This document shows positions 7,957 to 27,860 of a stretch of 34,840 nt of DNA, one piece after another. The stretch is from Streptosporangiaceae bacterium. Its GTDB lineage: Bacteria; Actinomycetota; Actinomycetes; Streptosporangiales; Streptosporangiaceae. The number at the start of each line of letters is the position of its first letter. The stretch's first letter is position 1. Made by a program: the position numbers and the translations under genes. The stretch is from assembly GCA_030041195.1 (NCBI GenBank), contig JASHOI010000092.1, positions 1 to 34,840 of the forward strand. Reading direction: 5' to 3'. The notes under the pieces were generated by a model. The model worked only from the letters and a program-made list of their open reading frames with translations. It had not been told where the DNA came from and made no database searches.

Positions 7957-8685
7957 ATGGCGGTCAGGCTGCTCATCCTCGTAAAGGAACGGGCCTTCGC
8001 CGACGCCCTGTCCACCCGGCTGGAAGCCGAGCAGGACGTGGAGATCGTGGCGGCGCTGCACACCAGGCAGCCGTCGCCGAACCTGTTCACGGGCAGCCGG
8101 GCGAACGTGCTGCTGATAGATGCGGATCTGCCCGATGACGCCGCGTTACACCTGTGCGAGCAACTGTCCCAGCGCGGCGAGGCGCCCTCGGTGATCCTGC
8201 TCAGCCAAGCCTCGGACCCGCGGTCGATCGTGCGGGCCGTGGGCGCGGGCGCCGTCGGCTGGGTGCGCAAGGACGAGTCGCTCAGCCGCCTGATCGATGT
8301 GATCCGCGGCGCGGCCAGAAGCGAGACGTGGCTGCCGCCCAGCGAGACCGGGGAGGTGCTGCGGCTGCTGCTGCGCGGCCCCGACTCGGAACCGGAGGAG
8401 GGCGCCCGGGCGCTGGCCGTGCTGACCCCGCGCGAGCGGGAGGTGCTGGCCTGCCTCGCCGAGGGTACGCCGCGCCGCGAGCTGGCCGGTCACCTGCATA
8501 TGTCGCCCAACACGGTCCGGACTCACGTGCAGAACATCATGAATAAGCTCGGCGTGCACTCGATCCTCGAGGCCGTCGCGCTCACGCGCTCGCACCTTGC
8601 CGGTCATCCCGCCCCGGCACCCCAGTGGCGGAACCCTGGCGCCGCGGGGCCGTCGCTCACGCTCGTGCGCCGGAGATCGCGATGA
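7957..8685 (+). CDS. LuxR/NarL-type response regulator with degenerate receiver acidic pocket
   Basis: The protein has 242 residues: receiver domain about 1-125 and LuxR helix-turn-helix about 155-220 (LTPREREVLACLAEG, then MSPNTVRTHVQNIMNKLG). Asp55 in L-L-I-D-A-D-L-P and the Lys in W-V-R-K-D-E are retained. The N-terminal strand reads L-I-L-V-K-E-R-A-F, so the metal-binding Asp/Glu pair is largely lost, as in atypical or phosphorylation-independent receivers. It closely resembles the regulator at 29415-30092 (shared words include FADAL, WVRKDESL, ETWLPP, ETG and KLGVHS). GGAAGG precedes ATG by about nine bases. The stop overlaps the start of the aminotransferase gene, tying it directly to the polysaccharide operon. 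Confidence 0.9.
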   Translation: MAVRLLILVKERAFADALSTRLEAEQDVEIVAALHTRQPSPNLFTGSRANVLLIDADLPDDAALHLCEQLSQRGEAPSVILLSQASDPRSIVRAVGAGAVGWVRKDESLSRLIDVIRGAARSETWLPPSETGEVLRLLLRGPDSEPEEGARALAVLTPREREVLACLAEGTPRRELAGHLHMSPNTVRTHVQNIMNKLGVHSILEAVALTRSHLAGHPAPAPQWRNPGAAGPSLTLVRRRSR

Positions 8686-9815
8686 GCCCGGCGGGGCCGG
8701 GCGTTCCGTTCACCGACCTGGGCGCGATGACCCGTGAGGTCCGCGCCGCCGTCGAGCAGGGCTGGTCGGGCCTGCTCGACTCGAGCCGGTTCGTGGGCGC
8801 TGCCGCGGTCGAGGGCTTCGAGCGCGCGTGGGCGTCGTACTGCGGCGTGCCGTACGCGGCCGGCGTGGGCAACGGGACCGATGCCTTGCTGCTGGCCCTC
8901 CGGGCGCTGGGGATCGGCGCCGGTGACGAGGTTGTCGTGCCCGGCAACACGTTCATCGCGTCGGCCGAAGCGGTCGTCCTCGCCGGGGCAACGCCGGTCT
9001 TCACCGATGTGAGTCCCGATACGCTGCTGCTCACCCCCGGCCAGCTCGAAGCGGCCATCACCCCCCGCACCGCTGCGGTGATCGTCGTTCATCTTTACGG
9101 CCAGATGCCCGACATGGACGCGTTGAGCCGCTGTGCCGACCGGGCAGGCATCGCGCTCATCGAGGACGCGGCGCAGGCGCACGGCGCGAGCTGGCGCGGC
9201 CGCCCAGCCGGGTCGATCGGCCGAGCGGGCTGCTTCAGCTTCTACCCGGCGAAGAACCTGGGCGCCTTCGGCGACGCGGGTGCCGTGGTCACCGCGGACG
9301 GGGCGCTGGCGGATCGGGTCACGAGCATGCGCGACCACGGCCGTGGCCGGTCCCGCTACGATCACGAGCTGATCGGCACCAACAGCAGGCTCGACGCGCT
9401 GCAGGCCGTGGTGCTGGCCGCGAAACTATCCAGGCTTGATGCCTGGACCGAGGCGCGCCGGTCAATTGCCGCTCGGTACCGTGCCGCGTTCGGTGACGGG
9501 CCCGCCCGCATGGTCGCGGAGGAGCCGGGGTCGCTGGGCGCTTACCACCTGGCCGTCGTCCGGGTGCCGGACCGCGCCGCAGTTCAGCGGCAGCTCGCCG
9601 CGGCGGGGATCGAGACCCAGGTGCACTATCCGACCCCGTGCCACCGGCACCCCCCGTACCGGGGGTTCACAACGCGCCCGCTGCCGGTCGCCGAGGAGTG
9701 CTCCGGCCAGATCCTCTCGCTGCCGATGTTCCCGCACCTGACTGACGACCAGGTAAGCCGGGTGTGCGACGCGGTCCGGGGCGCGCTGGGAACAAGGGAA
9801 CCGATCCCGGCCTGA
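8682..9815 (+). CDS. DegT/DnrJ/EryC1/StrS-family sugar aminotransferase
   Basis: The protein has 377 residues from the ATG that overlaps the regulator stop and follows CGGAG; an ATG 57 bases earlier lies inside the regulator gene and is disfavoured. It shows the class hallmarks: VGNGTDALLLALRALGIG, D-E-V-V-V-P-G-N-T-F, I-E-D-A-A-Q-A-H-G and the PLP-binding Lys191 in F-Y-P-A-K-N-L-G-A-F-G-D-A-G. These enzymes transaminate a keto group on a nucleotide sugar using glutamate. A 3-keto sugar aminotransferase (WbpE/QdtB/FdtB-like) is a good guess, because the window also encodes a WlbA/WbpB-like dehydrogenase and a WbpD-like acetyltransferase. The nucleotide and sugar are not determined by the sequence alone. 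Confidence 0.93.
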   Translation: MSPAGPGVPFTDLGAMTREVRAAVEQGWSGLLDSSRFVGAAAVEGFERAWASYCGVPYAAGVGNGTDALLLALRALGIGAGDEVVVPGNTFIASAEAVVLAGATPVFTDVSPDTLLLTPGQLEAAITPRTAAVIVVHLYGQMPDMDALSRCADRAGIALIEDAAQAHGASWRGRPAGSIGRAGCFSFYPAKNLGAFGDAGAVVTADGALADRVTSMRDHGRGRSRYDHELIGTNSRLDALQAVVLAAKLSRLDAWTEARRSIAARYRAAFGDGPARMVAEEPGSLGAYHLAVVRVPDRAAVQRQLAAAGIETQVHYPTPCHRHPPYRGFTTRPLPVAEECSGQILSLPMFPHLTDDQVSRVCDAVRGALGTREPIPA

Positions 9816-10056
9816 CGCGAAACTGCATTTTCGCATGACCGCCGCCTCATATCTTTTTTCGCGCCCCGAAAATTGTGAGAAAGCAGCTACGGTGACTTCC
9901 GCCCCCACAATGTGCGGCATGCCAATACGTCAAATGGAGGCTGTGACCAGCAACGGCCCCGGGCTAGGTTCGGTGAGTGTTGGAGGGCCGGGAATTTCAC
10001 AGCCAGCCTGCGCGCGAGTTCCCGCTATTCAGTGCGCGGCAGAAAACGGGGATCTC
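9816..10056. other. Intergenic/leader region before the sugar-phosphate transferase
   Basis: These 241 bases include an A+T-rich stretch (about 9826-9895, with TTTTTT and GAAAATTGTGAG) unlike nearby coding DNA, so a promoter internal to the locus is likely here. The transferase frame is open throughout, with possible starts at 9835, 9919, 9934 and 9943, but third-position G/C bias is weak before 10057. No other gene is seen. Confidence 0.45.
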
Positions 10057-10746
10057 GTGACGGATCTTTCGGAAAGACGGGTATCGCGGCACCGGCACCA
10101 GCGGCTCGCGCCCAGCCGAGGCCGCGAAGCGGCGATACGCGCGCTGGACATCGCGGTGTCGCTGGTCGCGATCCTGGCCGCGGCTCCGCTGCTGGCGGTG
10201 CTGTGGCTGCTGGTGCGGGCCACCTCGCCCGGTTCCGGACTGTTCCGCCAGGAGCGGCTCGGCCGCAACCTGCGGCCGTTCACGATGCTGAAGCTGCGCA
10301 GCATGTACATCAGCGAGAGCGACCAGATCCATCGGGAGTGCATCGCGGGGCTGGTCTCCGGCGAGCGCGGGGCCGGATCGCGCGGGCTGTTCAAGCTGGA
10401 GACGGATCCCCGGGTCACGCCGGTGGGGGCATGGCTGCGCCGGACCAGCCTGGACGAGCTGCCGCAGCTGTTCAACGTGCTCAAGGGGGACATGTCGCTG
10501 GTCGGACCGCGCCCGGCGCTGTCGTGGGAGGCGGAGATGTGGCCCCCCGTTTACCCGGAGTACAAGCGCCGGTTCGACGTCAGGCCCGGCATGACCGGGC
10601 TGTGGCAGGTGAGCGGCCGCAGCAAGCTGCCGGTGCAGCAGTCGCTCGAGCTTGACACCGAGTACGTCCGGCGGCGGAGCTTCGTTCTTGACCTGATGAT
10701 CCTCGCCCGCACGCTGCCGGCCCTGTTCCGGGGCGGTGCGTCGTGA
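10057..10746 (+). CDS. Polyprenyl-phosphate sugar-1-phosphate transferase (WcaJ/PglC-type)
   Basis: The protein has 229 residues from the GTG preceded by ACGGGGATC; longer versions from 9835-9943 are possible. It is the bacterial sugar transferase domain: one N-terminal hydrophobic helix (V-S-L-V-A-I-L-A-A-A-P-L-L-A-V-L), then F-R-Q-E-R-L-G, F-T-M-L-K-L-R-S-M, L-R-R-T-S-L-D-E-L-P-Q-L-F-N-V-L-K-G-D-M, S-L-V-G-P-R-P and P-G-M-T-G-L-W-Q-V-S-G-R. It moves sugar-1-phosphate from a nucleotide sugar to undecaprenyl phosphate at the inner face of the membrane, which starts repeat-unit assembly. The large N-terminal four-helix part of WbaP/WcaJ proteins is absent, as in PglC-like short forms. It converges on the acetyltransferase 23 bases downstream. 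Confidence 0.9.
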   Translation: MTDLSERRVSRHRHQRLAPSRGREAAIRALDIAVSLVAILAAAPLLAVLWLLVRATSPGSGLFRQERLGRNLRPFTMLKLRSMYISESDQIHRECIAGLVSGERGAGSRGLFKLETDPRVTPVGAWLRRTSLDELPQLFNVLKGDMSLVGPRPALSWEAEMWPPVYPEYKRRFDVRPGMTGLWQVSGRSKLPVQQSLELDTEYVRRRSFVLDLMILARTLPALFRGGAS

Positions 10747-11405: not shown

Positions 11406-11451
11406 TATTGGCGGTGGTCGCCATCAACCATTCAAGCCCATGGACGGAGCC

Positions 11452-12675: not shown

Positions 12676-13889
12676 GCGCGGCACCTCTGCTCGGGCCGGC
12701 TCGCCAGCGCCACCGCTCCCATGGCCGGGCGCCGGGCGCCGTCGTCATCGGCGGAGATCATCAGGGGCTGGGGATCGCGCGAAGCCTCGGGCGCCGCGGC
12801 ATCCCCGTGCACGTGATCGACGACGAAACCTCCATCGCCCGCGCGTCGCGCTTCGTGCAGCACGTCACCCGGGTCCGCGACCTGCGCGGCGAATCATCGC
12901 TGCTCGACGCCCTGGCCCTGGCCCGCCGCAGGCTTGGGCGTCCCGGGTGGGTCATCTACCCGACCCGGGACGAGAACGTCGCCGCGGTGGCGGCGAACCG
13001 GGATGTGCTCGAGGCAGATTTCAGGGTGCCGACCCCTGGGCTGGCCTCCATCCGCACCGTCTGGGATAAGCGGGAGACATACCGGCTGGCCAGGCAGCTG
13101 TCGATTCCGATACCCCGGACCTGGTTCCCGCGGACAGAAGCTGACCTGGCTGCGATCGACATGGATGGCCCGCTGGTCGTGAAGCCCGCGATCAAGGAGC
13201 ACTTCTTCTACGTCACCCGCGCCAAGGCCTGGCGCGCCGACACCCCGGCCGAGCTGGCGTCCAGTTTCCGGCGGGCCGCGGCGATCGTAGGGGACGGGGA
13301 GGTCATCGTCCAGGAGCTGATCCCCGGCGGCGGACAGGAGCAGTACGCCTACTGCGCCTTGTTCCGCGATGGCTGTGTGATCGCGGACATGACGGTGCGC
13401 CGGCGCCGCCAGCACCCGTCGGACTTCGGCCGCGCGAGCACCTTCGTCGAGACGATCTGCCTGCCGGACCTCGCCGCCCCGTCGATCCGGTTCCTGAGCG
13501 CCATCGGCTATTACGGCCTCGTCGAGCTTGAATTCAAGCGGGATCCCCGGGACAGCGCTTACAAGCTTCTCGACGTCAACGCCAGGACATGGGGATATCA
13601 CACGCTGGGACGCGCGGCGGGGGTGGACTTCCCGTACCTGATGTTCCGCGACCAGCTGGGCGAGCGCGTCGGCGAGGTGCACGCCCGGCCCGGTGTCCGC
13701 TGGGTCCGGCTGGCGACCGACCTTCCGAACGCGGTGCGCGATATCCGGTCCGGAACGTTGCGGTCACGCGATTACCTGCGCACGCTGCTCACCGTCAACA
13801 CCGAGGCGGTCTTCTCCCTCACCGATCCCCTGCCCGGGCTGTACGAGATTGCGCTGCTGCCTTATCTCGCCGTCAGGCGCGGACTGTGA
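12672..13889 (+). CDS. ATP-grasp ligase (predicted carboxylate-amine ligase)
   Basis: The 405-residue protein has an N-terminal pre-ATP-grasp segment (G-A-V-V-I-G-G-D-H-Q-G-L-G-I-A-R-S-L), the ATP-binding strands P-L-V-V-K-P-A-I-K and V-I-V-Q-E-L-I-P-G-G-G-Q-E, and the metal-binding L-V-E-L-E-F-K-R-D with L-L-D-V-N-A-R-T-W-G. This matches the COG3919-type predicted ATP-dependent carboligases. These activate a carboxylate as an acyl phosphate and join it to an amine. In a polysaccharide locus it may attach an amino acid or acid to an aminosugar. It begins in the stop of the flavoprotein gene (ATGA); no separate ribosome-binding site is evident. Substrates cannot be assigned. Confidence 0.85.
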   Translation: MSAAPLLGPARQRHRSHGRAPGAVVIGGDHQGLGIARSLGRRGIPVHVIDDETSIARASRFVQHVTRVRDLRGESSLLDALALARRRLGRPGWVIYPTRDENVAAVAANRDVLEADFRVPTPGLASIRTVWDKRETYRLARQLSIPIPRTWFPRTEADLAAIDMDGPLVVKPAIKEHFFYVTRAKAWRADTPAELASSFRRAAAIVGDGEVIVQELIPGGGQEQYAYCALFRDGCVIADMTVRRRRQHPSDFGRASTFVETICLPDLAAPSIRFLSAIGYYGLVELEFKRDPRDSAYKLLDVNARTWGYHTLGRAAGVDFPYLMFRDQLGERVGEVHARPGVRWVRLATDLPNAVRDIRSGTLRSRDYLRTLLTVNTEAVFSLTDPLPGLYEIALLPYLAVRRGL

Positions 13890-13916: not shown

Positions 13917-16628
13917 ATGTTTGAGTCGTCTCACCCGTTTGCCTTCTTCGACTATTACCGCGTTCCGTACCAGGTGCGGCCGCCTGAGCAGGCGAACGGC
14001 CATCGCGGGGAGCCGCTGGTGGGCCGGCTGCGCCCGGTGTCGCACGCTGGCCGCCAGGGGCGCTCGCTGTTCTGGCTGCGCGCCGGCGCCGGCGCCGGCC
14101 GGGCGGCCGGGCCGGCCGTCGCCCGGCTCGGCCGGTACCAGCTGCACGACTTCACCTTCTTCGGCCACGTCGCGCCGGACGCCGCGGTTCCGGGCCTGCT
14201 GCCGTCGCCTGACAGCGGATGGTGCCCGGCCGATCCCGTTCTCGGCGCCGGCGGGCACGCTGCCGCCGCGATCTGGCGGGACCGCGACGGCAACGTGTTC
14301 CTGCCCTTCGACCCGGGCGAGGTGATGCAGCGCTTCTGGTCCGAGGAGTACCGGGACGTGGGGCGCTCGGCCCTGACCGCGGTCGCCCACACGGCCTCGC
14401 TGCGCGGTTATTACCTGCTGCGGCCGGTGCTGCCGCGCCCGTTGCAGCTGCGACTCAGGCGCGTCTTCACCCGGGCGCAAGGCAGGTCATCCTTTCCGGG
14501 ATGGCCAATTGAGGAAAGCCTCCATGACTTCTACGCGTGGCTGTTCGCGCTGGCCGCCGAGCTCGCCGGCGCTCCGGTGCCGTTCCTCGACCTGTGGCCG
14601 GGCGGGCGATCGTGGGCACTGGTCCTGACCCACGACGTGGAAACCGATGCGGGCCAGCGCGACATCGACCTGCTGCGGGGTCCCGAGCGCGAACGGGGAT
14701 ACCTGTCGTCCTGGAACCTTGTCGCGCATCGCTACCGCGTCGACGACGACGTGGTCCGTTCGCTGCAGGCCGAGGGATGCGAGATCGGGGTGCACGGGCT
14801 GCGGCACGACGGGCGCGATCTCGGTTCCAGGCGGCTGCTGCAGCAGCGGCTCCCGGCGATGCGCAGCTACGCCGAGCGGTGGAACGCGGTCGGATTCCGG
14901 TCACCGGGTACCCAGCGGAAGTGGGCGTGGATGCCCCGGCTCGGTTTCGACTACGACTCGTCGTACAGCGACACCGATCCGTATGAGCCGCAGCCGGGCG
15001 GGTGCTGTACCTACCTGCCGTATTTCAACGAGGGCATGGTCGAATTGCCGATAACGCTGCCGCAGGACCACACGCTGTTCACGATCCTGCAGCACCCCGA
15101 CTCTGACGTGTGGATCCGCAAGGCACACCTGCTTCGCGAGCGGAACGCGATGGCCCTCGTGCTCACCCATCCGGACTACGCGCACGACCCCAGGATTTCC
15201 GACGGCTACCGAAGACTGCTCGACGCGTTCCGGGACGACGACAGCGCCTGGCGCGCACTGCCGCGTGACGTCGCGGCGTGGTGGCGCCGGCGCGCTGACT
15301 CGAGAATCCGGGCGAACGGGGGCGGGTGGGCGATCGAAGGCCCCGCCGCGGGCGAGGGAACGGTGCGGTTCGCCACGGCAGACGTGACCGAAACAGACCG
15401 TCGCGGTAAGCAGGCACAGGCGCCCGCCAGCGGGCCGGGCGGCCGGGACGGCGGCCACATCCTGGTGATCGTGGAGAATGTGCCGCTCGGGATCGACCAG
15501 CGGCTCCGCAAGCAGGTCAGGGAGCTGCTCGGCAGCGGGTACCGCGTCTCGGTGGTGACCAGGCGGGATCCGGAGAACGCCAGCTACCGCGACCTGCCGG
15601 GCCTCAAGGTGCTCGACTACCCGGCGCCGCGCGAGCCGAGCCGGATGAGCGGCTACGCCGCAGAGTACGGTGTGTCGTTCGGCTGGGCGGCCGTGCTCGC
15701 GACCGCGGCCCGGCTGCAGGGCCGTATCGACGTCGTCCAGCTGTGCCAGCCGCCGGACATCTACTTCCCGCTCGCCTGGCCGCTCAGATGGCTCGGCGCG
15801 CAGGTCGTGGTTGATCAGCGCGATCTCATGCCGGAACTCTTCGCCGCCAGGTACGAGCAGCCGAAGCCGGGGGTCACGTCGATGCTGCGCTGGCTCGAGC
15901 GGCGGTCCCAGAGCGTCGCCGAGCACACGATCTGCACCAACGAGTACTTCCGCGATCGCCTGATCGGATCGGGCGCGGCACCCGAGCGGGTGACGATCGT
16001 GGGAAACGGCCCGGTCCTGGACCGGGTCAACCGCGCGGTCGCAGACCCGGCCCTCAAGGGCGACCACAAGTTCATGTGTTGCTGGATCGGCAAGATGGGC
16101 CGGCAGGACCGCCTTGACCTGCTGGTGCGGGGAATCGCGTGCCTCGTGCACGACCTCGGGCGCACGGACTGCTGCTTCGCGATCCTCGGCGACGGGGAGT
16201 CCCTCGACGAGACGCGGTCGGAGTCGGCCCGGCTGGGACTTGAGCCCTGGGTCAGCTTTCCCGGCTGGCTGTCCGAAGAACAGGTCTTCAGCTATCTCGC
16301 GACCGCGGATCTCGGGCTCGACACCTCGCTGCAGGAGGACATCTCGCCGGTCAAGCTCATGGAGTACATGGCCTGCGGCCTCCCATTCGTGGCCTTCGAT
16401 GTGCAGGAGACCAGAGCGATGGGCCAGGACGCGTCGGTGCTCGTCGCGCCGGCCGACATCGAGAGCTACGCGCGGGAAGTCGCCGCGCTCCTCGATGACC
16501 AGGCGCGTCGCGCCGAGCTGGGCGAAGTCGGGCGGAAGCGGGTACGGGATGATCTCGCCTGGGAGCGGCAGTCGGCCGCCTATCTGGACGTGATGCGGAG
16601 CCTGTGCCGGCGCAGCCGCCGGCGGTAG
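13917..16628 (+). CDS. Polysaccharide deacetylase - GT4 glycosyltransferase fusion
   Basis: This is a single uninterrupted frame of 903 residues with GGAGG before ATG. Residues about 1-230 are an N-terminal segment I do not recognise. A NodB-type deacetylase follows (about 231-460) with L-T-H-D-V-E (Asp240), the H-x3-H metal pair His293/His297 in G-V-H-G-L-R-H-D, G-F-R-S-P-G and L-V-L-T-H-P-D. A low-complexity linker (about 465-512) leads to a GT4 glycosyltransferase (about 513-900) with N-terminal H-I-L-V-I-V-E-N-V-P and a D/E-x7-E donor motif in D-I-S-P-V-K-L-M-E-Y-M-A-C-G-L-P. It should add a sugar and remove an N- or O-acetyl group on the cytoplasmic side. It is the only clear glycosyltransferase in the locus. 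The stop is nine bases from the convergent methyltransferase. Confidence 0.92.
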   Translation: MFESSHPFAFFDYYRVPYQVRPPEQANGHRGEPLVGRLRPVSHAGRQGRSLFWLRAGAGAGRAAGPAVARLGRYQLHDFTFFGHVAPDAAVPGLLPSPDSGWCPADPVLGAGGHAAAAIWRDRDGNVFLPFDPGEVMQRFWSEEYRDVGRSALTAVAHTASLRGYYLLRPVLPRPLQLRLRRVFTRAQGRSSFPGWPIEESLHDFYAWLFALAAELAGAPVPFLDLWPGGRSWALVLTHDVETDAGQRDIDLLRGPERERGYLSSWNLVAHRYRVDDDVVRSLQAEGCEIGVHGLRHDGRDLGSRRLLQQRLPAMRSYAERWNAVGFRSPGTQRKWAWMPRLGFDYDSSYSDTDPYEPQPGGCCTYLPYFNEGMVELPITLPQDHTLFTILQHPDSDVWIRKAHLLRERNAMALVLTHPDYAHDPRISDGYRRLLDAFRDDDSAWRALPRDVAAWWRRRADSRIRANGGGWAIEGPAAGEGTVRFATADVTETDRRGKQAQAPASGPGGRDGGHILVIVENVPLGIDQRLRKQVRELLGSGYRVSVVTRRDPENASYRDLPGLKVLDYPAPREPSRMSGYAAEYGVSFGWAAVLATAARLQGRIDVVQLCQPPDIYFPLAWPLRWLGAQVVVDQRDLMPELFAARYEQPKPGVTSMLRWLERRSQSVAEHTICTNEYFRDRLIGSGAAPERVTIVGNGPVLDRVNRAVADPALKGDHKFMCCWIGKMGRQDRLDLLVRGIACLVHDLGRTDCCFAILGDGESLDETRSESARLGLEPWVSFPGWLSEEQVFSYLATADLGLDTSLQEDISPVKLMEYMACGLPFVAFDVQETRAMGQDASVLVAPADIESYAREVAALLDDQARRAELGEVGRKRVRDDLAWERQSAAYLDVMRSLCRRSRRR

Positions 16629-18623: not shown

Positions 18624-19619
18624 GTGACAGACGGCGATCACTCCCTTGGGCTCGGGAAGCCGTCTCGCCAGTCTGATTTGCCAGGGATCAAGGAGAGGAA
18701 AACGAAGAAAGGTTACCGTTTTTTGAAGCGCTGGCGATTGCGATCTTACGGGTTGGTAGCGGCAGCAGTGGTCCTAGTGGTGGTGGGCGCCTACTACGTT
18801 CTCAAGCCCTCCGGCCAATCCGGACCGTCTGCTGAGCCGTCCGCCGTTATTAGCTGCAATTCGCAATATACGACCAGCCACGGGGCCGTTACCCCCCTGG
18901 ATGGGGGCGTCTACGCGATGCAAGCGGACGAGTACAACTCGAGTGCTCCATTCTCGATGTGCGGCGACGGGGGCGAGAACTTCAAAATCATTAAGTCTCA
19001 AATCGGCGTACCCACCGACGGCGCTCCCGGAGGATACCCGTCGATCTTCCGCGGTTGCCACTGGGGTGATTGTACTGAAGACAGCGGCCTGCCCATAAAG
19101 GTTTCATCGATGGAAGCAAATGCCGGTCTGGTGAGGCTGTCCTACAACACACAGGTCTCGGCTCGTGGAGTTTGGGACGATGCATTTGATATCTACTACA
19201 CCCCATGCGATGATCATGGCATATCTCACAGTGGCTGCACCCAAAGTACGCAACCTGATCGCGAGATGATGATATGGCTAAGCCACTACGGGCCGGCCAC
19301 TCCCGGCGGAAAATCCACTGAGGTTACCGTAGAAGGTATTAATTTTAATCTGTGGTGGGATGGCTATCACACCATGTGGTACGAAATAAGGCAGCCCAGC
19401 CTCACTCACCCGCACGTACAGAACCTTGACTTGGGAGATTTCATCAAGGATGCAGTTGACCGGGGATACATCCCCTCCTCTTCTTGGTACCTCATGGATA
19501 TCGAGGCTGGATTTGAAATATGGCAAGGAGGTCAGGGACTCCAAGCCAATTCATTGAGTATCTGTACACCAAGCCCGGTCGGATGTGGAAAGGCGACGCG
19601 AGCGATGGGCAGCTCTTGA
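18624..19619 (+). CDS. Membrane-anchored GH12 endo-glucanase-like protein
   Basis: The 331-residue protein has a basic cytoplasmic stretch (to about residue 41), one hydrophobic segment about 42-60 (G-L-V-A-A-A-V-V-L-V-V-V-G-A-Y-Y-V-L), then an extracytoplasmic GH12 domain about 75-315. GH12 hallmarks are Y-P-S-I-F-R-G-C-H-W-G-D-C-T, the nucleophile Glu214 in R-E-M-M-I-W-L and the acid/base Glu298 in G-F-E-I-W-Q-G-G; their 84-residue spacing agrees with characterised GH12 cellulases. It should cut beta-1,4-glucan or mixed-linkage glucan outside the membrane, possibly trimming the locus's polymer. The start is a GTG with a weak ribosome site. Codon use is clearly less G/C-biased than in the neighbours (many AAA, ATT, TAT), suggesting separate acquisition. 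Confidence 0.88.
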   Translation: MTDGDHSLGLGKPSRQSDLPGIKERKTKKGYRFLKRWRLRSYGLVAAAVVLVVVGAYYVLKPSGQSGPSAEPSAVISCNSQYTTSHGAVTPLDGGVYAMQADEYNSSAPFSMCGDGGENFKIIKSQIGVPTDGAPGGYPSIFRGCHWGDCTEDSGLPIKVSSMEANAGLVRLSYNTQVSARGVWDDAFDIYYTPCDDHGISHSGCTQSTQPDREMMIWLSHYGPATPGGKSTEVTVEGINFNLWWDGYHTMWYEIRQPSLTHPHVQNLDLGDFIKDAVDRGYIPSSSWYLMDIEAGFEIWQGGQGLQANSLSICTPSPVGCGKATRAMGSS

Positions 19620-19683: not shown

Positions 19684-21336
19684 TCAGATCTCCATTCCCC
19701 GACGCTGCCGCAATCGCGTCAGGACCGCTCGCAGATCTCCATTGTCCAGGGCGTAGACGACCACGCCGAACACGAGGACCGCACAGCCAGCGGCAGCCAC
19801 CGCCAGGCCAGCCGCCTCCAGTTTCTGGCCTGCCGGCAGGACAAGGCCAGCGGCCAGGCCAGCGGCTGAGGCCGCGGACGCCGCCGCCAGCCCGGCGAAT
19901 GTCGCGCGGCCGATCCCTTGCACCGCCGAGCTGCCGCGAATCCTTCGGGTCGCGATGACCAGCGGGATGGCTACCAGTGTCTGGCCGATGGTGTTGCCGA
20001 GACCGAGCGCGGCCACAACAAGGCGGGCCGGCACCAGGCCCGCCAGTATCACGTCCGCCAGCACGATGATCATCTGACTGCCGGCCAACGCCCAGGCCGC
20101 TACCCGAAGCCGGCCGAGGGCGAGCATCACCCGGGAAAGATTCGTGATCACTCCCAAGGCCACCAGCCCGGGGGTGAATGCGGCGAAGCCAAGGATCAGC
20201 TGTGATACCTGGTCTGGCTGCTTGGCGAGGACGTGACCAGCGGGAATGGCGATCGCCGCGAGAACGGCTGTGCCAAGCCAGGAGACGAGCAGGACCGCAC
20301 GCGTCGATCCGGCGCAGGTCCGGTCGAAGGCCGAGCCGTCGCGGGCGGAAAGCACCGGGAACGCGCTCGTGGCAATGGAGAGGGCAAGCACCGCGCTCAC
20401 CGAGCTGAACGCTTGCCACACGTAGTTGTAGAGCACGAGCGCGCCGGTCGAGCCGCGCCCATTAGCCAGGGTGATCACGACCACCGAGGTCAGATCGCTG
20501 GCGATGATCTCGATGACGCCGACGAGCGCTAGCCCGCCCGCCCGCCGCGCCACGCCGGGTGGGAACTGCAGCGTGGGCCGGAACCTCAGGTGCAGGCGCC
20601 GTGCCGGCAGCAGCGGGACGACGACCAGCGCGGCAACGCCCATCGTGGTACCGACCGAGAGGACCAGCTGTGCCGAGTCCGGAAGCCGTGACAGTGGCAG
20701 TCCCTTGCCCAGCGGCACGAAGGCGAGGTAAGAGCCGATCAGAACGAGGCTCGAGATGACCGGCGCCAGCGTCGGCCCAGCGAACCTGCGGTAGGCCTGG
20801 AGCAGCCCGAACAGCACGACGGAGAGCCCGTAGAGGAGAACCTGCGGGGCGAACACGGTGAGCATGCTTCTCGTGGCTGCGACCATGTCGGCGTGGTTGC
20901 ACTGAGCGTGCTGGTTGGCTGGATTGAGCAGCGACGCGATCGGTCCGGCGGCCGCGGCAGTCGCCACCGTCAGCGGCACCAGGAGGACCACGGACCAGGT
21001 GAGCAGGGCTGACGAGATCTGGCCCACGCGTGCTCTCTCCGCTGGATCAGACGACGCACGCTCGGCCGAGCGAGCCAAGACCGGCACCATGGCGCTGGTC
21101 AGCGCGCCGCCGAGCACGAGCTCGTAGACCAGGTTCGGCACCTGGTTTGCCGTCGCGTAGGCGGTCCCCACGCAACCCGCCCCGATCGTTTGGGAAAACA
21201 CGAGTGTGCGTACGAGCCCGAGCATGCGTGACAACATGGTCAGCCCGGCGATAAGGGCGGCGCCCCGGGCGATACCGGCGCCGGGTGGCTTCTCCCGATC
21301 CGGCTTCGGTACCTCGACGGGTGCAACCCCAGTCAT
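19684..21336 (-). CDS. MurJ/MviN-family lipid flippase
   Basis: The 550-residue polytopic membrane protein has about 14 hydrophobic segments. The MOP/MurJ N-terminus G-L-T-M-L-S-R-M-L-G-L-V-R-T-L-V-F and the segment A-N-Q-V-P-N-L-V-Y-E-L-V-L-G-G-A-L-T-S are characteristic (compare N-x-P-N-L-x-R-x-L-F-A-E-G in MurJ). It probably flips undecaprenyl-linked oligosaccharide across the membrane. It is distinct from the MurJ-like half of the fusion at 24639-27860. It follows the TPR-fused gene on the same strand after 100 bases containing a strong hairpin, so its expression may be separately set. Lipid II flipping cannot be excluded, but the position argues for the polysaccharide pathway. Confidence 0.9.
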   Translation of the reverse strand: MTGVAPVEVPKPDREKPPGAGIARGAALIAGLTMLSRMLGLVRTLVFSQTIGAGCVGTAYATANQVPNLVYELVLGGALTSAMVPVLARSAERASSDPAERARVGQISSALLTWSVVLLVPLTVATAAAAGPIASLLNPANQHAQCNHADMVAATRSMLTVFAPQVLLYGLSVVLFGLLQAYRRFAGPTLAPVISSLVLIGSYLAFVPLGKGLPLSRLPDSAQLVLSVGTTMGVAALVVVPLLPARRLHLRFRPTLQFPPGVARRAGGLALVGVIEIIASDLTSVVVITLANGRGSTGALVLYNYVWQAFSSVSAVLALSIATSAFPVLSARDGSAFDRTCAGSTRAVLLVSWLGTAVLAAIAIPAGHVLAKQPDQVSQLILGFAAFTPGLVALGVITNLSRVMLALGRLRVAAWALAGSQMIIVLADVILAGLVPARLVVAALGLGNTIGQTLVAIPLVIATRRIRGSSAVQGIGRATFAGLAAASAASAAGLAAGLVLPAGQKLEAAGLAVAAAGCAVLVFGVVVYALDNGDLRAVLTRLRQRRGMEI

Positions 21337-21436: not shown

Positions 21437-24400
21437 CTACCGGGCACGCTCATGCATCGGCGCGTCGGCGCCGGGGATCAGGTCGCGTTCCGGTCCTCTT
21501 TCTGCCTCCTGGCGATCGTCATGCGGTTCTGCCGGTTGCGCTGCATCGCGGCCGGCATCGACGGCCGCATCTGGGCCAGCGTCGGTTATGCGGCCGCGGT
21601 CGGCCTGCGCTTCGTCGCGACGGCCCATCGCCTCATAGACCTGGGCCCGGCTGCTGATCGCCCAGGCGAGTTGCGGACTGAGGTCGATCGCCTCGCTGAG
21701 GTCGGCCAGCGCCTCGTCATGCCGGCCCATCGCCTGGTAGGCCAGGCCCCGCCTGCCGAAGGCCCAGGCGTCGCCCGGGTTGAGATCGATCGCGCGGGTG
21801 AAGTCGGCCAGCGCCTCGTCGTGCCGGCCCATCGTGGCGTAGGTCTCGCCGCGACCCGCAATGGCCCAGGTAAGGCCGGGGTCGAGGTCGATCGCCTGGC
21901 TGAAGTCAGCCAGCGCGTCCTCGCGCCGGCCCATCGCCAGGTACGCCTGAGCCCGGCTGCCGATGGCCCAGGCGTAGACGGGGTCAAGGTTGACCGCGCG
22001 GGTGAAGTCGGCCAGCGCCTCCTCGTAGCGGCCCATCAGCCGGTAGGTCTCGCCGCGGCCGGCGATGGCCCGGGCGTGGCCGGGGTCGAGGTCGATCGCG
22101 CGGGTGAAGTCGGCCAGCGCCTCGTCGTGCCGGCCCATCAGCCGGTAGGTCACGCCGCGGCCGGCGATGGCCCAGGCGAGGTTCGGCTCCAGGTCGATCG
22201 CGCGGGTGAAGTCGGCCAGCGCCTCCTCGTGGCGATCTATGGCGTGGTAGGCCTGGGCCCGGCTGGCGATCGCCCAGGAGTCGCGCGGGTCGAGGTCGAT
22301 CGCGCGGGTGAAGTCGGCCAGCGCCTCCTCGTGCCGGCCCATCGCCTGGTAGGTCTCGCCGCGGCCGGCGATGGCCCAGGCTAGGTTCGGGTCCAGGTCG
22401 ATCGCCCGGGTATAGTCCGCCAGCGCCTCCTCCTGGCGGCCCATCGCCTGGTAGGCCTGGCCCCGGCTGCCGATGGCCCAGGCATCGCCCGGGTCGAGTT
22501 CGATCGCCCGGGTGAAGTCGGCCAGCGCCTCCTCGTTGCGCCCCATCGCCGCATTGGTCTCGCCGCGGCCGGCGATGGTCCGGGCGAGGTTGGGGTCCGC
22601 GCCGATCGCGTGGCCGTTATCCGTCAGCGCCTCTTCGTGGCGGGCCATCGCCTGGTGGGCCTGGCCCCGGCCGCCCATGGCCATGGCGAGCCTCGCCTCG
22701 AGTTCGATCGCCCGGGTGAAGTCGGCCAGCGCCTCCTCGTGGCGCCCCATGGCCCGATTGGCCTGGCCGCGGCTGCTCATGGCCCGCGCGTCGTTCAGGT
22801 CGATGTCTATCACCTGCGTGTAGTCAGCAGCCAGCTCGTCGTCGCGGCGGCCCAGCGCCACACCGCGGTCGCGCAGGACCGCTGCGTGGCTGGGGTCGAG
22901 TTCGATCGCGCGGGTGAAGTCGGCCAGGGCCTCCTCGTGCCGGCCCATCGCCGCATAGGTCTCACCGCGGCCGGCAATGGCCCGGGCGAGGTCGGCGAAC
23001 ACATTCTCGAGCTGCTCAACCGGGGGCTTGCCCGGCGCGGGAGCCAGATAGCGCTCTTGACCGGACTCGGCCAGGGCGTGGCCGTCGCCGAGCGGCTCCC
23101 GGCTGCGCGACCGCAGCCGGCGGCGCCTGCCCACGTTGTCGAGGACGCACCCTGCCAGCTTGCCGCGCACGTGCTCGACTTCGCGCATCGCGAGCCGCAC
23201 CTGTGCCCGGGTGGACCGGTGTGCATCCGCCACCACGAGGATCATCTCCGCCCGTTCTGCGAGCGCACGAGCGTCCGGGCTGGCCAGCACCGGCGGAGCG
23301 TCGATGACGGCAACATCCGCTCGGCTGCCGATATCGCTGAGAGTGATGTGCCACGCGGGGCTTTGCAGAAGCGCGGCCGGGTCGGCGGGCGCCATGCCCG
23401 ACGGGAGCAGCCGGAGCCCGGGAACCTGGGTCGGCTGGAGCGCCTCGGCCAGGCCTACCCGCCCTTGCAGCACCATGCTGAGACCGGGCCCGATGCCCAG
23501 GCCGAATAGCTCGTGCACCCGGCCCCACCGCATGTCGGCCGATACCAGCACCACGCTGCGGCCGGACTGTGCGAGCGCTGCCGCAAGGTTGGCGGCGACC
23601 GTGCTCTTGCCCTCCCAGCCTGGGCTGGTGACGAGCAGGGTCTTCGCGTGGCTGGGGGTGGCCGCCTCCACCAGCCGCGTCCGCAGGACCCGGTAGGCCT
23701 CCGCGGCCAGCGAGTGCGGGTACGCCGCGGCGGCGAGCCGGCCGCCAGGATCGCGCCAGCGCGGCCGGAAGGCGGGGATCAGCGCGAGTACCGGGGCGCC
23801 GGCCTGGCTTTCAAGATCGAGCGGGCCGCGCAAGCCGTCGTCCATGTAGTCACGAAGCGCGGCGGTTCCGATGGCCAGGGCGAGTCCCAGGATCAGCGCG
23901 GCGGCGATGTCGATCAGGTATTTCGGGCCGGCCGGTGCGGTGGGCAGCGAGGCGGGCGTGAGCAGGGTAGCCGTTGGCGTCGTCCCCAGTGTCGCCGAGG
24001 TCGCCGACCGGGTGCGGCGGGTCGTGGCTGACCGCGAGGACCGGTAGGAGACGTAAGCCTCGGCGATGGCCTGCGCCCGCTGCTGGGCCACGCGCGCAAC
24101 CGGGTCCGTGTACGTGATGTCCAGCAACGTCGTTGTGCCCGGCACGCTCACGGACAGGCCTTTGGCCAGCACGGTCCGGGGCACGCCCAGGGCCGTGGAA
24201 GCCTTCGTGAGCACGGCCGCAGAGGTCACGACGCCTTCCTCGGTCGCCATGTTGGGCGGGCTGCCGCTGCTGGCAGCGATGGGCGCGGGCTGGACGGACA
24301 CGACGGCTTCCGACTTGTAGTACGGCCGCTGCGAGTGCGCGAATGCGCCGGCGGCGGCGACCGTCGCGATCGTCACGCTGACGATCCAGACCGAGTGCGC

Positions 24401-24649
24401 GAGAAGGAACCGCGGCCATGAGCCCGGGCCGCCTGGCGTCCGCCGGAGTTGCCGCGCGGTCAGTCGCGCCAGCCGCGTTCCCTCGTCGCGGCCGATGCGC
24501 CATCGCCGCGGCGGCCGGTTCGGCCGGGCCGTTGCTGACGGCTGCCGCGGCTGACGTGCCCGCCGCGGCCGCCGCGGCCTCCCGGCATGCCCGTCCGCGT
24601 CGCTGATCGTGTTATTGGATGCCGAGTAGCCGGTGTCATCAGGTGTCAT
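21437..24649 (-). CDS. Wzz/BY-kinase-like protein fused to 14 TPR repeats
   Basis: The protein has 1070 residues when started at the ATG with CGGAG upstream, which overlaps the preceding gene's stop; an ATG five codons earlier is possible. Order: basic, disordered N-terminus; transmembrane helix about 86-105; Wzz-like periplasmic segment about 106-240; second transmembrane helix about 245-265; a CpsD/Wzc-type ATPase domain about 310-510. The phosphate loop reads V-T-S-P-G-W-E-G-K-S-T, one residue shorter than usual; Walker A' is L-V-S-A-D-M-R, with the first Asp replaced by Ser; Walker B is V-A-V-I-D-A-P-P. Fourteen 34-residue TPRs (about 555-1030) replace the Tyr-rich kinase tail. It probably controls chain length or assembly through TPR-mediated partners rather than tail phosphorylation (inference). 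Confidence 0.9.
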   Translation of the reverse strand: MTPDDTGYSASNNTISDADGHAGRPRRPRRARQPRQPSATARPNRPPRRWRIGRDEGTRLARLTARQLRRTPGGPGSWPRFLLAHSVWIVSVTIATVAAAGAFAHSQRPYYKSEAVVSVQPAPIAASSGSPPNMATEEGVVTSAAVLTKASTALGVPRTVLAKGLSVSVPGTTTLLDITYTDPVARVAQQRAQAIAEAYVSYRSSRSATTRRTRSATSATLGTTPTATLLTPASLPTAPAGPKYLIDIAAALILGLALAIGTAALRDYMDDGLRGPLDLESQAGAPVLALIPAFRPRWRDPGGRLAAAAYPHSLAAEAYRVLRTRLVEAATPSHAKTLLVTSPGWEGKSTVAANLAAALAQSGRSVVLVSADMRWGRVHELFGLGIGPGLSMVLQGRVGLAEALQPTQVPGLRLLPSGMAPADPAALLQSPAWHITLSDIGSRADVAVIDAPPVLASPDARALAERAEMILVVADAHRSTRAQVRLAMREVEHVRGKLAGCVLDNVGRRRRLRSRSREPLGDGHALAESGQERYLAPAPGKPPVEQLENVFADLARAIAGRGETYAAMGRHEEALADFTRAIELDPSHAAVLRDRGVALGRRDDELAADYTQVIDIDLNDARAMSSRGQANRAMGRHEEALADFTRAIELEARLAMAMGGRGQAHQAMARHEEALTDNGHAIGADPNLARTIAGRGETNAAMGRNEEALADFTRAIELDPGDAWAIGSRGQAYQAMGRQEEALADYTRAIDLDPNLAWAIAGRGETYQAMGRHEEALADFTRAIDLDPRDSWAIASRAQAYHAIDRHEEALADFTRAIDLEPNLAWAIAGRGVTYRLMGRHDEALADFTRAIDLDPGHARAIAGRGETYRLMGRYEEALADFTRAVNLDPVYAWAIGSRAQAYLAMGRREDALADFSQAIDLDPGLTWAIAGRGETYATMGRHDEALADFTRAIDLNPGDAWAFGRRGLAYQAMGRHDEALADLSEAIDLSPQLAWAISSRAQVYEAMGRRDEAQADRGRITDAGPDAAVDAGRDAAQPAEPHDDRQEAERGPERDLIPGADAPMHERAR
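21563..22990 (-). repeat. 102-base tandem repeats encoding the TPR array
   Basis: About 14 in-frame copies of a 102-base unit encode TPRs around M-G-R-H-E-E-A-L-A-D-F-T-R-A-I. The word CGATCGCGCGGGTGAAGTCG recurs on the + strand at 21787, 22093, 22195 and 22297, that is at exact multiples of 102. In the later copies R-G-E-T-Y and R-(G/A)-Q-A-Y types alternate, giving a 204-base higher-order period. Near-identity in DNA implies recent expansion and a likely site of copy-number variation or assembly collapse. Confidence 0.9.
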
Positions 24650-27600
24650 GTAATCTCCGTGCATTTAACGCGGCTGCCGCGCGGTAATCGATGAAGGACT
24701 GGGCGAGACGCCTATTCCGGGGAGCCGCCAGCGCGATCAGGGAGAAGAAGTCATCCGCCGAGCCCCGGTATGTCAGGTGCGGGTCAAAGACCATGAGGAC
24801 GGCGATGACGATCACCGCCACGAAGACCGCCGTGCCCGCCACGCTCCGCGCGTCACGGCCGCCGCGTGCCGTAGCCCAGCTGTACTTCGCCGTCACATAG
24901 ACGAAGTAGACAAAGCTCAGCAGCAGCGGTATGCCGCCGCCCCACAGCAGCCAGGTATAGCCGCTCTCAATCCAGACCTCGTTGTTCGTGGCTGTGGGGC
25001 TCACCACGGTCAGCACCGCCGCCGGGCGGACGCCGAGCACGAAATTCCAGTCCGAGAACAGCTTGGGCCAGAAGTAGGTCTCCAGGTTCTGCAGCCGCGT
25101 GAGCCAGCTGATCGGCAGGCCAGACGCCGACTTGAAGCCGAGGAGCCGGGTGCCGATGACCGGCCACATGACCCAGCCGCCGACCCCGGCGGCCGGCACG
25201 AACCAGGCAAGCAGCCGCGCCGAGCCGGACACGATGGCGATGCAGAGCAGGCCTGCGACCAGGCCAATCGCGCCGGCGAATTCCCCTGCTGCGAGCGCGC
25301 CGAACAGCATCAGCGCGGCGGCGGGCGCCAGCACCAGGCGGAGCCGCCGGTAGCGCATCCACAGCCCGCACACGATCGCCAGGTTGAAGGTCATCAGGTC
25401 CGCGGTCGCGGCGGGCAGTCCCAGCGTCGAGCTGCCGCGGCCCCCCGGTGGCCCGAACACGCTCGGGCCGCCGAAGTAGTCGGCCAGCAGCCTCGGCACC
25501 CCGAACAGCGAGAGGGACTGCAGGATCGCAATCAGTGACACGACACACGCGACGGCGACGGACAGCCACAGGCACCGCAGCACCTGCCGGTCGGTGCTTA
25601 TGGCGGCGCGGACGATCGCGTAGATGCCGAGGAGCTTCCAAATGACCAGCGCGTAGAGCAGGTCTTCCTGGGTTATCGCCTGCTGCCGGACCGCCATCCA
25701 CAGCAGCGGGGTGACGGAGTTGCACACCGCCATCAGGATCACGGCCACCTCGATCCGGTCCAGCCGGATCCTCGGCAGCTGGCCGGTGTGCGCCCTGACG
25801 AAACCCCGCAGCAGCAGCGTCCCGCCTACCAGCAGATCGATCGCCTCGTTGGGCCGGACCAGCGGCAGGTGGCCGACGCTGAGGCTGACGGTGAGCGGCG
25901 TCAGCCCGATGACGAGGTACGCAGCGAGCTGCGGCCACCGCCACACGCACACCACGAGGATCAGCACCAGCAAGCCCGCGAGCGCCTTCAACGGGCCGAG
26001 CGTGCTGACCGCGCCGATCATCGCGGCGCCGAGCAAGCTCGGCGCGATCAGCCAGCGGCCCGGCGGGCGGGGCGGCGTGCGCTCGTCGGGGCGACGCTCC
26101 GGGAGGAAAGCGGACCAGGGCGGCGCAGCTACCGGAAGGCTGGCGCTGGTCGGGCCCGTCCCGGCCAGCCGGCCGGCCTTGCTCCTGATCTGGCCCACGC
26201 CTTCAGCGAGCCAGGCCACCTCCGGAGTCCGCCACAGCGCCTGGACGGCGATAAACACCGCCGCCCCGGCCGCGGCGGCCGCGACTATCCCGATCCTTGG
26301 GCCAAGCGGCCGTCCCAGCCAGCGGGGAACGAACGTGGCGATCAGCCACGCTGGCCCGGCCATGACGATGGCGCCGACGACGAACCTGGCCAGCGATGGC
26401 GCGAGCCGCTGCGTGCCCCTTCCGCCGAGCGTCCGCCACATGCGGATCATCAGGTGACCCGCGGCCATGGCGACCGAACCCGACGCGGCCAGGCCCACCA
26501 CCACGAGCACGGCTGGCCCGTGCACCAGCGGGGTCAGGCTCAGCACGCCGAGGCACACGACAGCCTGCACGATCATCGACCGCAGCGGTGACCTGGTGTC
26601 CTGCCGCGCGTAGGACGCATACGTTGTGATCATGAAGGCCGTCTGCCCGACGACCGCCAGCGAGAGCGGAGCCAGCACCGCGGCCACCATCGTGACCGCT
26701 GCCGCCGAGTTCATCTGGCCGAACGAGCTAGCCGCGGCCAGCGGCCTGGCCAGGACCAGGAAGGCGACCGCCGCGGGGATCGTGAGGAAGAACCCCAGCG
26801 CCAGGCCGCGGACGACGGTGTCCCGGAAGCCGCTGCTGTCCCCGTCCAGGTGCATCCGCGCCAGCCGGGGGATCAGCGACAGCGCCACCGGCGCGGTGCC
26901 GAGGTTGTTCGCCAGCGCGTAGAAGTTCCAGGCAATCTGGAACGCGACGACGCCGCCGGCCAGCCGGTTCGCGGCTATCATCAGGGCCAGCAACTGCAGG
27001 GCTTCCAGGCCCGCTTGACCCAGCGCCGGGATCGCCCGCTGCATCACCGCCCGGACCTCGGCGTCCCGCCAGCCAGGACGCGGCAGCAGCAGCACGCCTG
27101 CCCGCCGCGCACCCCACCACTGGGTGGCCGCGTGCAGGGCAACGGCGCCGGTCGAGCCGAGCCCCAGCAGCAGCAATTCGCCGGTCGGCAGGTTGCCGAG
27201 GCTCCGTCCCGTCCCGTAGAGCGCGGCCGTCGCCGCCAGCACTGCGATCGTGCCCAGGTTCTCCACCGCAGGCGCTCCGGCGGCGAGCGCGAAGCGCCGG
27301 CGAGAGTTCATCACGGCGGTCGAGGTGCCGACCACGCCGTAGAGGAACATCTGGGGAAGGAACATGAGGATCAGCAGGCGGCCGACGCGGACCTCCGCTG
27401 CACCGACCGCGTGCGGCCCGCCGATGGCCGCGGCCTTCAGCGCCAGCGGCCCGAGGAAGATCGCCAGGGGGGTGATCGCCAGCATGGCCACGAGCGTCAC
27501 GCCCAGGAAGCCACCGGCTATCCGCTCCGAGGCCCGCCGGTCACCGGCGTCGATATGCCGGACGAGGGCCGGGACGAGCAGCGAGGAAAACAGCCCGCCA

Positions 27601-27860
27601 GCCAGAAAGCCGTAATAGATGAGATTGGGCAGCGAATTCGTGAACTGGTAGGTATTTCCGGTGTACGTGGGGCCCAGTACGCCAGCGACCACCGCGATTC
27701 GTGCCAGCCCCGTTACGCGGCTCAAGACCGTCCAGGCGGCGATGGTCAGCGAATCACCCGCGGCCGAAGCCGGCTTGGACAAGTCCACAGCCGCGCTGGC
27801 ACCGCTCAGGGCATCCGCACCCGCTTCAGGCTCCGCGCGAGGCAGGGCGGGCGCGCTCAT
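24639..27860 (-). CDS. MurJ-like flippase fused to O-antigen polymerase/ligase-like domain
   Basis: This is one uninterrupted frame of 1073 residues. Residues about 35-557 are a MurJ/MviN-type flippase (T-V-L-S-R-V-T-G-L-A-R, S-L-P-N-L-I-Y-Y-G-F-L-A-G-G-L-F-S-S-L-L-V-P, Y-A-R-Q-D-T-R-S-P). A Pro-rich linker spans about 560-602. Residues about 603-1060 form a second polytopic domain of about 10-12 helices resembling Wzy/O-antigen ligase proteins, with a large loop (F-G-G-P-S-V-F-G-P-P-G-G-R-G-S-S-T-L-G) and the W-I-E-S-G-Y-T-W-L-L-W-G-G-G-I-P block common near the C-terminus of polymerases. It could flip and polymerise repeat units in one protein. The start overlaps the fossil sugar-transferase stop (ATGA); its stop overlaps the next gene by 11 bases. 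Confidence 0.9.
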   Translation of the reverse strand: MSAPALPRAEPEAGADALSGASAAVDLSKPASAAGDSLTIAAWTVLSRVTGLARIAVVAGVLGPTYTGNTYQFTNSLPNLIYYGFLAGGLFSSLLVPALVRHIDAGDRRASERIAGGFLGVTLVAMLAITPLAIFLGPLALKAAAIGGPHAVGAAEVRVGRLLILMFLPQMFLYGVVGTSTAVMNSRRRFALAAGAPAVENLGTIAVLAATAALYGTGRSLGNLPTGELLLLGLGSTGAVALHAATQWWGARRAGVLLLPRPGWRDAEVRAVMQRAIPALGQAGLEALQLLALMIAANRLAGGVVAFQIAWNFYALANNLGTAPVALSLIPRLARMHLDGDSSGFRDTVVRGLALGFFLTIPAAVAFLVLARPLAAASSFGQMNSAAAVTMVAAVLAPLSLAVVGQTAFMITTYASYARQDTRSPLRSMIVQAVVCLGVLSLTPLVHGPAVLVVVGLAASGSVAMAAGHLMIRMWRTLGGRGTQRLAPSLARFVVGAIVMAGPAWLIATFVPRWLGRPLGPRIGIVAAAAAGAAVFIAVQALWRTPEVAWLAEGVGQIRSKAGRLAGTGPTSASLPVAAPPWSAFLPERRPDERTPPRPPGRWLIAPSLLGAAMIGAVSTLGPLKALAGLLVLILVVCVWRWPQLAAYLVIGLTPLTVSLSVGHLPLVRPNEAIDLLVGGTLLLRGFVRAHTGQLPRIRLDRIEVAVILMAVCNSVTPLLWMAVRQQAITQEDLLYALVIWKLLGIYAIVRAAISTDRQVLRCLWLSVAVACVVSLIAILQSLSLFGVPRLLADYFGGPSVFGPPGGRGSSTLGLPAATADLMTFNLAIVCGLWMRYRRLRLVLAPAAALMLFGALAAGEFAGAIGLVAGLLCIAIVSGSARLLAWFVPAAGVGGWVMWPVIGTRLLGFKSASGLPISWLTRLQNLETYFWPKLFSDWNFVLGVRPAAVLTVVSPTATNNEVWIESGYTWLLWGGGIPLLLSFVYFVYVTAKYSWATARGGRDARSVAGTAVFVAVIVIAVLMVFDPHLTYRGSADDFFSLIALAAPRNRRLAQSFIDYRAAAALNARRLHDT

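Follow-up and report, generated by a model that had tools for sequence, protein, structure and literature searches.

The stretch of DNA studied here (the window) comprises 34,840 nucleotides of contig JASHOI010000092.1 from a Streptosporangiaceae bacterium (assembly GCA_030041195.1). On its minus strand lies a single gene, P0001, that unites a MurJ-type flippase with a membrane half resembling Wzy/WaaL proteins. It probably encodes a single-chain flippase-polymerase for an exopolysaccharide of the Wzx/Wzy type, which would carry out two steps in one complex. The gene and its parts are:

24639..27860, minus strand: fused gene (P0001), MurJ-type flippase, linker and Wzy/WaaL-like membrane half, 1073 residues
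26181..27770, minus strand: flippase half, residues ~31-560, MOP/MurJ fold
26031..26180, minus strand: Pro-rich, net-positive linker, residues 561-610, modelled with low confidence, probably cytoplasmic (from its charge and the topology of MurJ and WaaL)
24717..26030, minus strand: polymerase-like half, residues ~611-1048, WaaL/SEDS-type fold
25437..25439, minus strand: Arg808, Arg in 277/278 rows, candidate substrate-binding residue
25095..25097, minus strand: Arg922, Arg in 278/278 rows, candidate substrate-binding residue
24966..24968, minus strand: Glu965, Glu in 278/278 rows, at the alignment position of the HN-motif His in Wzy/WaaL, putative functional residue

The frame starts with ATG, stops with TGA and encodes 1073 residues, for which a mass of 112 kDa is calculated. 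From residue 31 on, its third-position G+C content is 0.85 to 0.95 in every block tested (0.90 in the linker). Of the two alternative frames, one is interrupted by stop codons within and near the linker, and the other has none between codons 553 and 963. Of 7985 candidates scored in a protein search, 478 were relatives at E <= 0.001, and the best 120 of these, query included, carry both halves in a single chain without exception. The other 119 listed homologues measure 1025 to 1740 residues and share 60 to 87% identity with the query (best local alignment). Because the search admitted only lengths of 0.55 to 1.75 times the query, with stand-alone halves outside its reach, it shows that the join is shared, not how frequent it is. 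In an alignment of 22 rows two well-conserved blocks flank a variable Pro-rich stretch; among the 120 listed proteins the linker ranges from 24 to 147 residues (median 52), and it differs in sequence as well as in length. Two conserved blocks around a variable stretch, joined in all 120 listed proteins, rule out a sequencing error as explanation. The fused reading frame and its homologues are real, and an earlier note on this DNA, which had described a single 1073-residue frame joining a flippase to a polymerase- or ligase-like domain through a Pro-rich linker, is confirmed in this observation. The co-occurrence of both domains in one protein, which the note had proposed to look for, is found in the 119 homologues as well as in 15 fused loci described below. 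The linker probably lies on the cytoplasmic side, since its charge is net positive and the ends of both halves are expected there from the topology of MurJ and WaaL. The full-length structure model (pLDDT 65, pTM 0.51) is too weak for reading the interface between the halves.

The flippase half matches PF03023 (MurJ/MviN, MOP superfamily) over residues ~31-560 with 139.1 bits against a gathering score of 27.4, and MurJ is its best structural match, the fold spanning the full MurJ length. The half is thus MurJ-type, as the note had stated. Its score to the MurJ lipid II flippase equivalog TIGR01695 is 155 bits, below the cut-off of 235.55. The conserved charged residues of Escherichia coli MurJ are R18, R24, D39, R52 and R270. 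The half keeps S17, R18 and R24, and D39, R52 and R270 are changed; among 58 cluster rows, Asn stands at the D39 place in 54 and at the R270 place in 51. It shares with MurJ the full-length fold, R18 and R24, and differs by its equivalog score and by Asn at the D39 and R270 places. We considered D39 and R270 as diagnostic of the cluster and dropped them: the 13 further actinobacterial MurJ proteins used for comparison all have Tyr for R52 and lack R270, and four of them have Asn for D39, so that the change is only partly special to the cluster. These 13 score best against PF03023 in their respective genomes but are not necessarily the housekeeping copies.

The polymerase-like half is harder to recognise. 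Residues ~621-1073 alone have no Pfam match at E = 1, and residues 611-1073 none at E = 0.1. None of the 21 members of the C-half set A2 matches PF04932 (Wzy_C) at E 0.1; a weak FliMN_C match in two of them was taken as chance. A sequence search of the PDB with this half gave no useful match, the PHROGs search gave none, and an hmmsearch with the C-half profile on Wzy_C-bearing loci found nothing. Nonetheless, the predicted fold fits the WaaL/Wzy structural superfamily, and the C-half profile aligns to Wzy_C proteins with hhalign at 95.2% and E 2.5e-8, against 0.2% for a MurJ control. Fold and profile similarity together bear out the polymerase- or ligase-like character given in the note, and we reject the view that this half is unrelated to Wzy/WaaL. 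The structural score to FtsW/RodA (SEDS) is lower than that to WaaL. FtsW and RodA are separate from MurJ and work with class B penicillin-binding proteins. The catalytic His that the WaaL ligase has in its HN motif is not present; its aligned place is occupied by the invariant Glu965. In ten Wzy_C proteins compared the same place holds His in four, Asp in three, Glu in one and a gap in two. Unlike WaaL/Wzy_C (PF04932), this half has no Pfam match, an invariant Glu instead of the HN-motif His, and a flippase joined to it. The C-half family is large (879 proteins scored at E <= 0.001) and has no Pfam entry among its 120 listed members.

The distribution of fused and split forms was obtained from an alignment-based scan with one genome per species, which yielded 39 loci; a scan of genome contigs with the single protein as query found no relative. 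Two loci (L033, L038) lack the flippase half. In the remaining 37, both halves lie in one frame in 15 cases (L002 and L036 end at the contig end) and in two frames in 22. In 21 of the 22 split loci, L027 being the exception, a candidate start codon of the polymerase gene lies so that the gene shares 1, 4 or 8 bases with the end of the flippase gene, counting no starts upstream of the aligned end of the flippase; for L015, L028, L029 and L035 more than one overlapping start is possible. The overlapping pair is probably translationally coupled. Fused isolates belong to Paractinoplanes (L004 and L037 among them), Winogradskya and Nucisporomicrobium; the fused form also occurs in metagenome-assembled genomes, among them several Streptosporangiaceae. 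The split form is seen, among others, in Kribbella, Nocardioides, Geodermatophilus, Longispora and Actinocatenispora. Five further places were read as DNA, L074 fused and L075-L078 split.

Fused and split forms alternate on the trees of both halves. Counting only the loci and the window, the polymerase tree requires four changes of state (three without L027) and the flippase tree three; both trees were built by a quick method, have SH-aLRT values as their only support and contain some long branches, and gain and loss are not told apart. The fused state is kept in 15/15 rows around the window and in 13/14 rows of a Micromonosporaceae/Streptosporangiaceae clade. As judged from sequence, fusion is a repeatedly changed state of a gene pair that otherwise overlaps. 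A count of seven changes, obtained when stand-alone polymerases from the database are included, was not used because their 'split' label is unreliable (P0193 resembles a truncated fused protein). Nor did we use a Mantel test of flippase against polymerase divergence over 21 split loci (r 0.80; 0/2000 permutations as high), since shared descent alone would give the same correlation. The system is sparse: a match at E 1e-60 occurs in 4/396 genomes from a sample of the phylum of G003 (the rows listed having no more than two candidates scored), in 6/150 genomes in the family of G001 and in 1/150 in the order of G003. These counts include the centre genomes, and three of the family's six (G001, G005, G009) were known beforehand.

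Around the fused gene the window contains the following genes.

21437..24664, minus strand: co-polymerase/bacterial tyrosine kinase-like gene (Wzc type) with a C-terminal TPR array, longest frame
19684..21336, minus strand: second MurJ-type flippase, 550 residues
27942..29150, minus strand: Gfo/Idh/MocA oxidoreductase (best NCBIfam match UDP-GlcNAc 3-dehydrogenase, 176.5 bits, below the cut-off of 450)
8625..9815, plus strand: DegT/DnrJ/EryC1-type sugar aminotransferase
9835..10746, plus strand: initiating phosphoglycosyl transferase (Bac_transf; best NCBIfam match EPS_sugtrans, 257 bits, below the cut-off of 295.55)
13917..16628, plus strand: 903-residue protein, an N-terminal part without Pfam match followed by a GT4-type glycosyltransferase

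Two marks of the Wzx/Wzy pathway are thus present nearby, namely an initiating phosphoglycosyl transferase and a polysaccharide co-polymerase. The likelier start of the co-polymerase/kinase gene is the ATG at 24649 (judged by eye from the read-through relative P0008), which leaves an overlap of 11 bases with the stop of the fused gene. Across loci the recurrent order is Gfo/Idh, DegT, phosphoglycosyl transferase, flippase, polymerase, in some cases GT4, and co-polymerase/kinase; in the window the same parts are spread over two facing strands. A co-polymerase lies within 3 kb downstream in 31/37 loci, and of the six others L002, L017 and L026 have less than 500 bases of contig left and L030, L032 and L035 lack a co-polymerase there. 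Upstream we find DegT in 31/37 and Gfo/Idh in 28/37 loci, and downstream GT4 in 16/37. A phosphoglycosyl transferase is counted upstream in 26/37 when any frame that overlaps the flippase is strictly left out, and eight more loci (L004, L009, L011, L012, L025, L034, L035, L039) have such a frame overlapping the flippase start. Among the filtered frames of the window only the fused protein and the second flippase are polytopic.

Further unions occur. In P0008 and P0038 (2/119) the fused chain runs on in frame into the co-polymerase/kinase. Their nucleotide-binding loops (from residues 1419 and 1443) read GWEDKGT and GGEDKST, and that of the window kinase (from residue 349) GWEGKST; all were read by eye, a scripted Walker A motif matching none of the three. 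The kinase parts of P0008 and P0038 are possibly weakened or pseudo-kinases. L074 (1-4783, minus strand) encodes MurJ, polymerase and GT4 as one frame, at least 1594 residues long and cut by the contig end, and L027 (5389-8475) has kinase and flippase, in this order, in one chain of 1028 residues with the polymerase gene ~3.2 kb away. The L027 flippase is nearest to those of L008 and the window, and its polymerase to those of L018 and L010. All these unions join parts of the same biosynthesis machine.

We propose that the phosphoglycosyl transferase and cytoplasmic glycosyltransferases would build a repeat unit linked to undecaprenyl pyrophosphate, its first sugar perhaps an amino sugar that the dehydrogenase (Gfo/Idh) and the aminotransferase (DegT) make. 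Turning this unit outward would fall to the MurJ-type half, and the WaaL/SEDS-fold half would link the flipped units into a chain by means of Arg808, Arg922 and Glu965, with the adjacent Wzc-type co-polymerase/kinase controlling polymerisation and chain length. The flexible linker may hold the exit of the flippase close to the entrance of the polymerase, and fusion would have evolved repeatedly because the two steps work in one complex. What was observed directly is the single frame with its homologues, the fold predictions, the conserved residues and neighbourhood, the overlaps and the recurrent changes of state; polymerase activity, substrate, residue roles, the linker's side of the membrane and both translational and physical coupling are inferred. 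The note had suggested that a covalent unit couples export to polymerisation; this interpretation is supported, and the coupling itself we infer from recurrent gene overlap and fusion. A bolder version, which is less likely than not, is that flippase, polymerase and co-polymerase/kinase form a permanent 1:1(:1) machine that hands the lipid-linked unit over internally. Were this true, evolution would have fixed the machine several times through covalent fusion (MurJ-Pol, MurJ-Pol-kinase, MurJ-Pol-GT4, kinase-MurJ).

Among other explanations, an assembly error or frameshift joining two genes is practically negligible. The genes of split relatives do overlap closely and an alternative frame runs through the linker without a stop, but different linkers connect the halves in the other 119 homologues listed, which come from several sources, isolates such as the two Paractinoplanes are fused too, and third-position G+C stays high through the linker. 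We therefore reject this explanation, and the frameshift near the linker that the note had named as fatal to its reading is not borne out. It is also highly improbable that the protein acts in peptidoglycan synthesis, with its flippase half as the lipid II flippase of the cell. The PF03023 match, MurJ as best structural match and the retained S17, R18 and R24 would suit this role; it is already contradicted by a better-scoring MurJ elsewhere in 13/13 genomes examined, which makes a housekeeping flippase unlikely, and by the score below the equivalog cut-off. On these two grounds we reject a housekeeping identity. The exopolysaccharide gene neighbourhood argues against it as well, and matches at E 1e-60 in 4/396 sampled phylum genomes, among the candidates scored in the rows listed, do not describe a general essential gene.

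Two alternatives carry more weight. Fusion could be a neutral by-product of overlapping genes, arising through a lost stop or a small slip, with the product working as two proteins or being cleaved. The short overlaps in 21/22 split loci make this a short mutational step, the two states alternate on the trees, and the linkers vary in length and sequence. We nevertheless consider it unlikely, as the fused state is maintained in sizeable clades (15/15 and 13/14 rows), no linker among the 120 listed is shorter than 24 residues, and the further unions in P0008, P0038, L074 and L027 all stay within the same machine. Quite unlikely, too, is a role of the C-terminal half as ligase or other GT-C enzyme, in which it would not polymerise but pass either the completed chain or one unit on to an acceptor, wall or lipid. 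A relative of the Wzc-type co-polymerase, the usual partner of a polymerase, stands in 31/37 loci and is part of the same chain in P0008 and P0038; the filtered frames of the window hold no other polytopic polymerase candidate; and Glu replaces the ligase His.

A flippase and a polymerase-like half joined in one flippase-polymerase chain can be compared with known systems. In the Wzx/Wzy pathway of the enterobacterial common antigen (WzxE, WzyE, WzzE), a phosphoglycosyl transferase, a MOP-fold flippase, a polymerase candidate and a co-polymerase are likewise encoded together. According to one report, polymerase and co-polymerase form a complex there, with WzzE:WzyE ~8:1 and Wzy in the lumen, and a Wzx-Wzy-Wzz complex is a proposal resting on mutant complementation (PMC10030265). 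In that system flippase and polymerase are separate proteins (PMC10030265), in agreement with what the note had said of known systems, whereas the chain described here contains one of each, with a flippase of the MurJ type. The 1:1 ratio, and 1:1:1 in P0008 and P0038, implies either another arrangement than that of WzzE and WzyE or extra co-polymerase from another gene. If the permanent machine is real, so is the proposed Wzx/Wzy supercomplex here, and the 8:1 WzzE/WzyE ratio is not universal. The imp and wps clusters of Actinoplanes missouriensis are also actinobacterial exopolysaccharide clusters of the Wzx/Wzy type, and wps-3 has DegT and GT4 genes too; going by the published candidates, Wzx and Wzy are encoded as separate proteins in imp and in wps-1 to wps-3 (PMC12691653, PMC13390465).

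The fold of each half and the Wzx/Wzy-type pathway are known already. The novelty lies in the joining of both halves in one chain, in the recurrent switching between joined and split states and in a polymerase-like family that has no name; the full-text literature searched, with most subscription papers and all preprints outside it, contained no report of a natural flippase-polymerase fusion. Some soil actinobacteria thus have one protein in which a flippase probably moves sugar building blocks outward and a polymerase-like half probably strings them together, and their join hints at two steps in one complex. Repeated natural union is independent evolutionary evidence for the proposed flippase-polymerase-co-polymerase supercomplex and makes structural study possible on one molecule. 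A MurJ-type flippase is here combined with the WaaL/FtsW/RodA fold, the two folds that make peptidoglycan, and the protein may model the hand-over from flippase to polymerase in general.

Some smaller observations concern single genes. The second MurJ-type flippase, two genes further on, shares 31% identity with the first over 237 aligned positions. L074 has ~260-290 residues without Pfam match between MurJ and polymerase. The window co-polymerase/kinase ends in a long array of ~11 TPR repeats; among the best kinase frames of 34 loci no such array matched at E 1e-15, and in 31/34 of them at most 138 residues follow the kinase match. The N-terminal part (~500 residues) and the GT4 part of the 903-residue protein are separate frames in L016, L019, L020 and L031, which makes it another union. 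A flavin adenine dinucleotide-dependent oxidoreductase and an ATP-grasp protein (11200-13889, plus strand) recur near the cluster in several loci, for example L010, L016, L018 and L019. Finally, a glycosyl hydrolase family 12 protein (18624-19619, plus strand) is perhaps a polymer-trimming enzyme.
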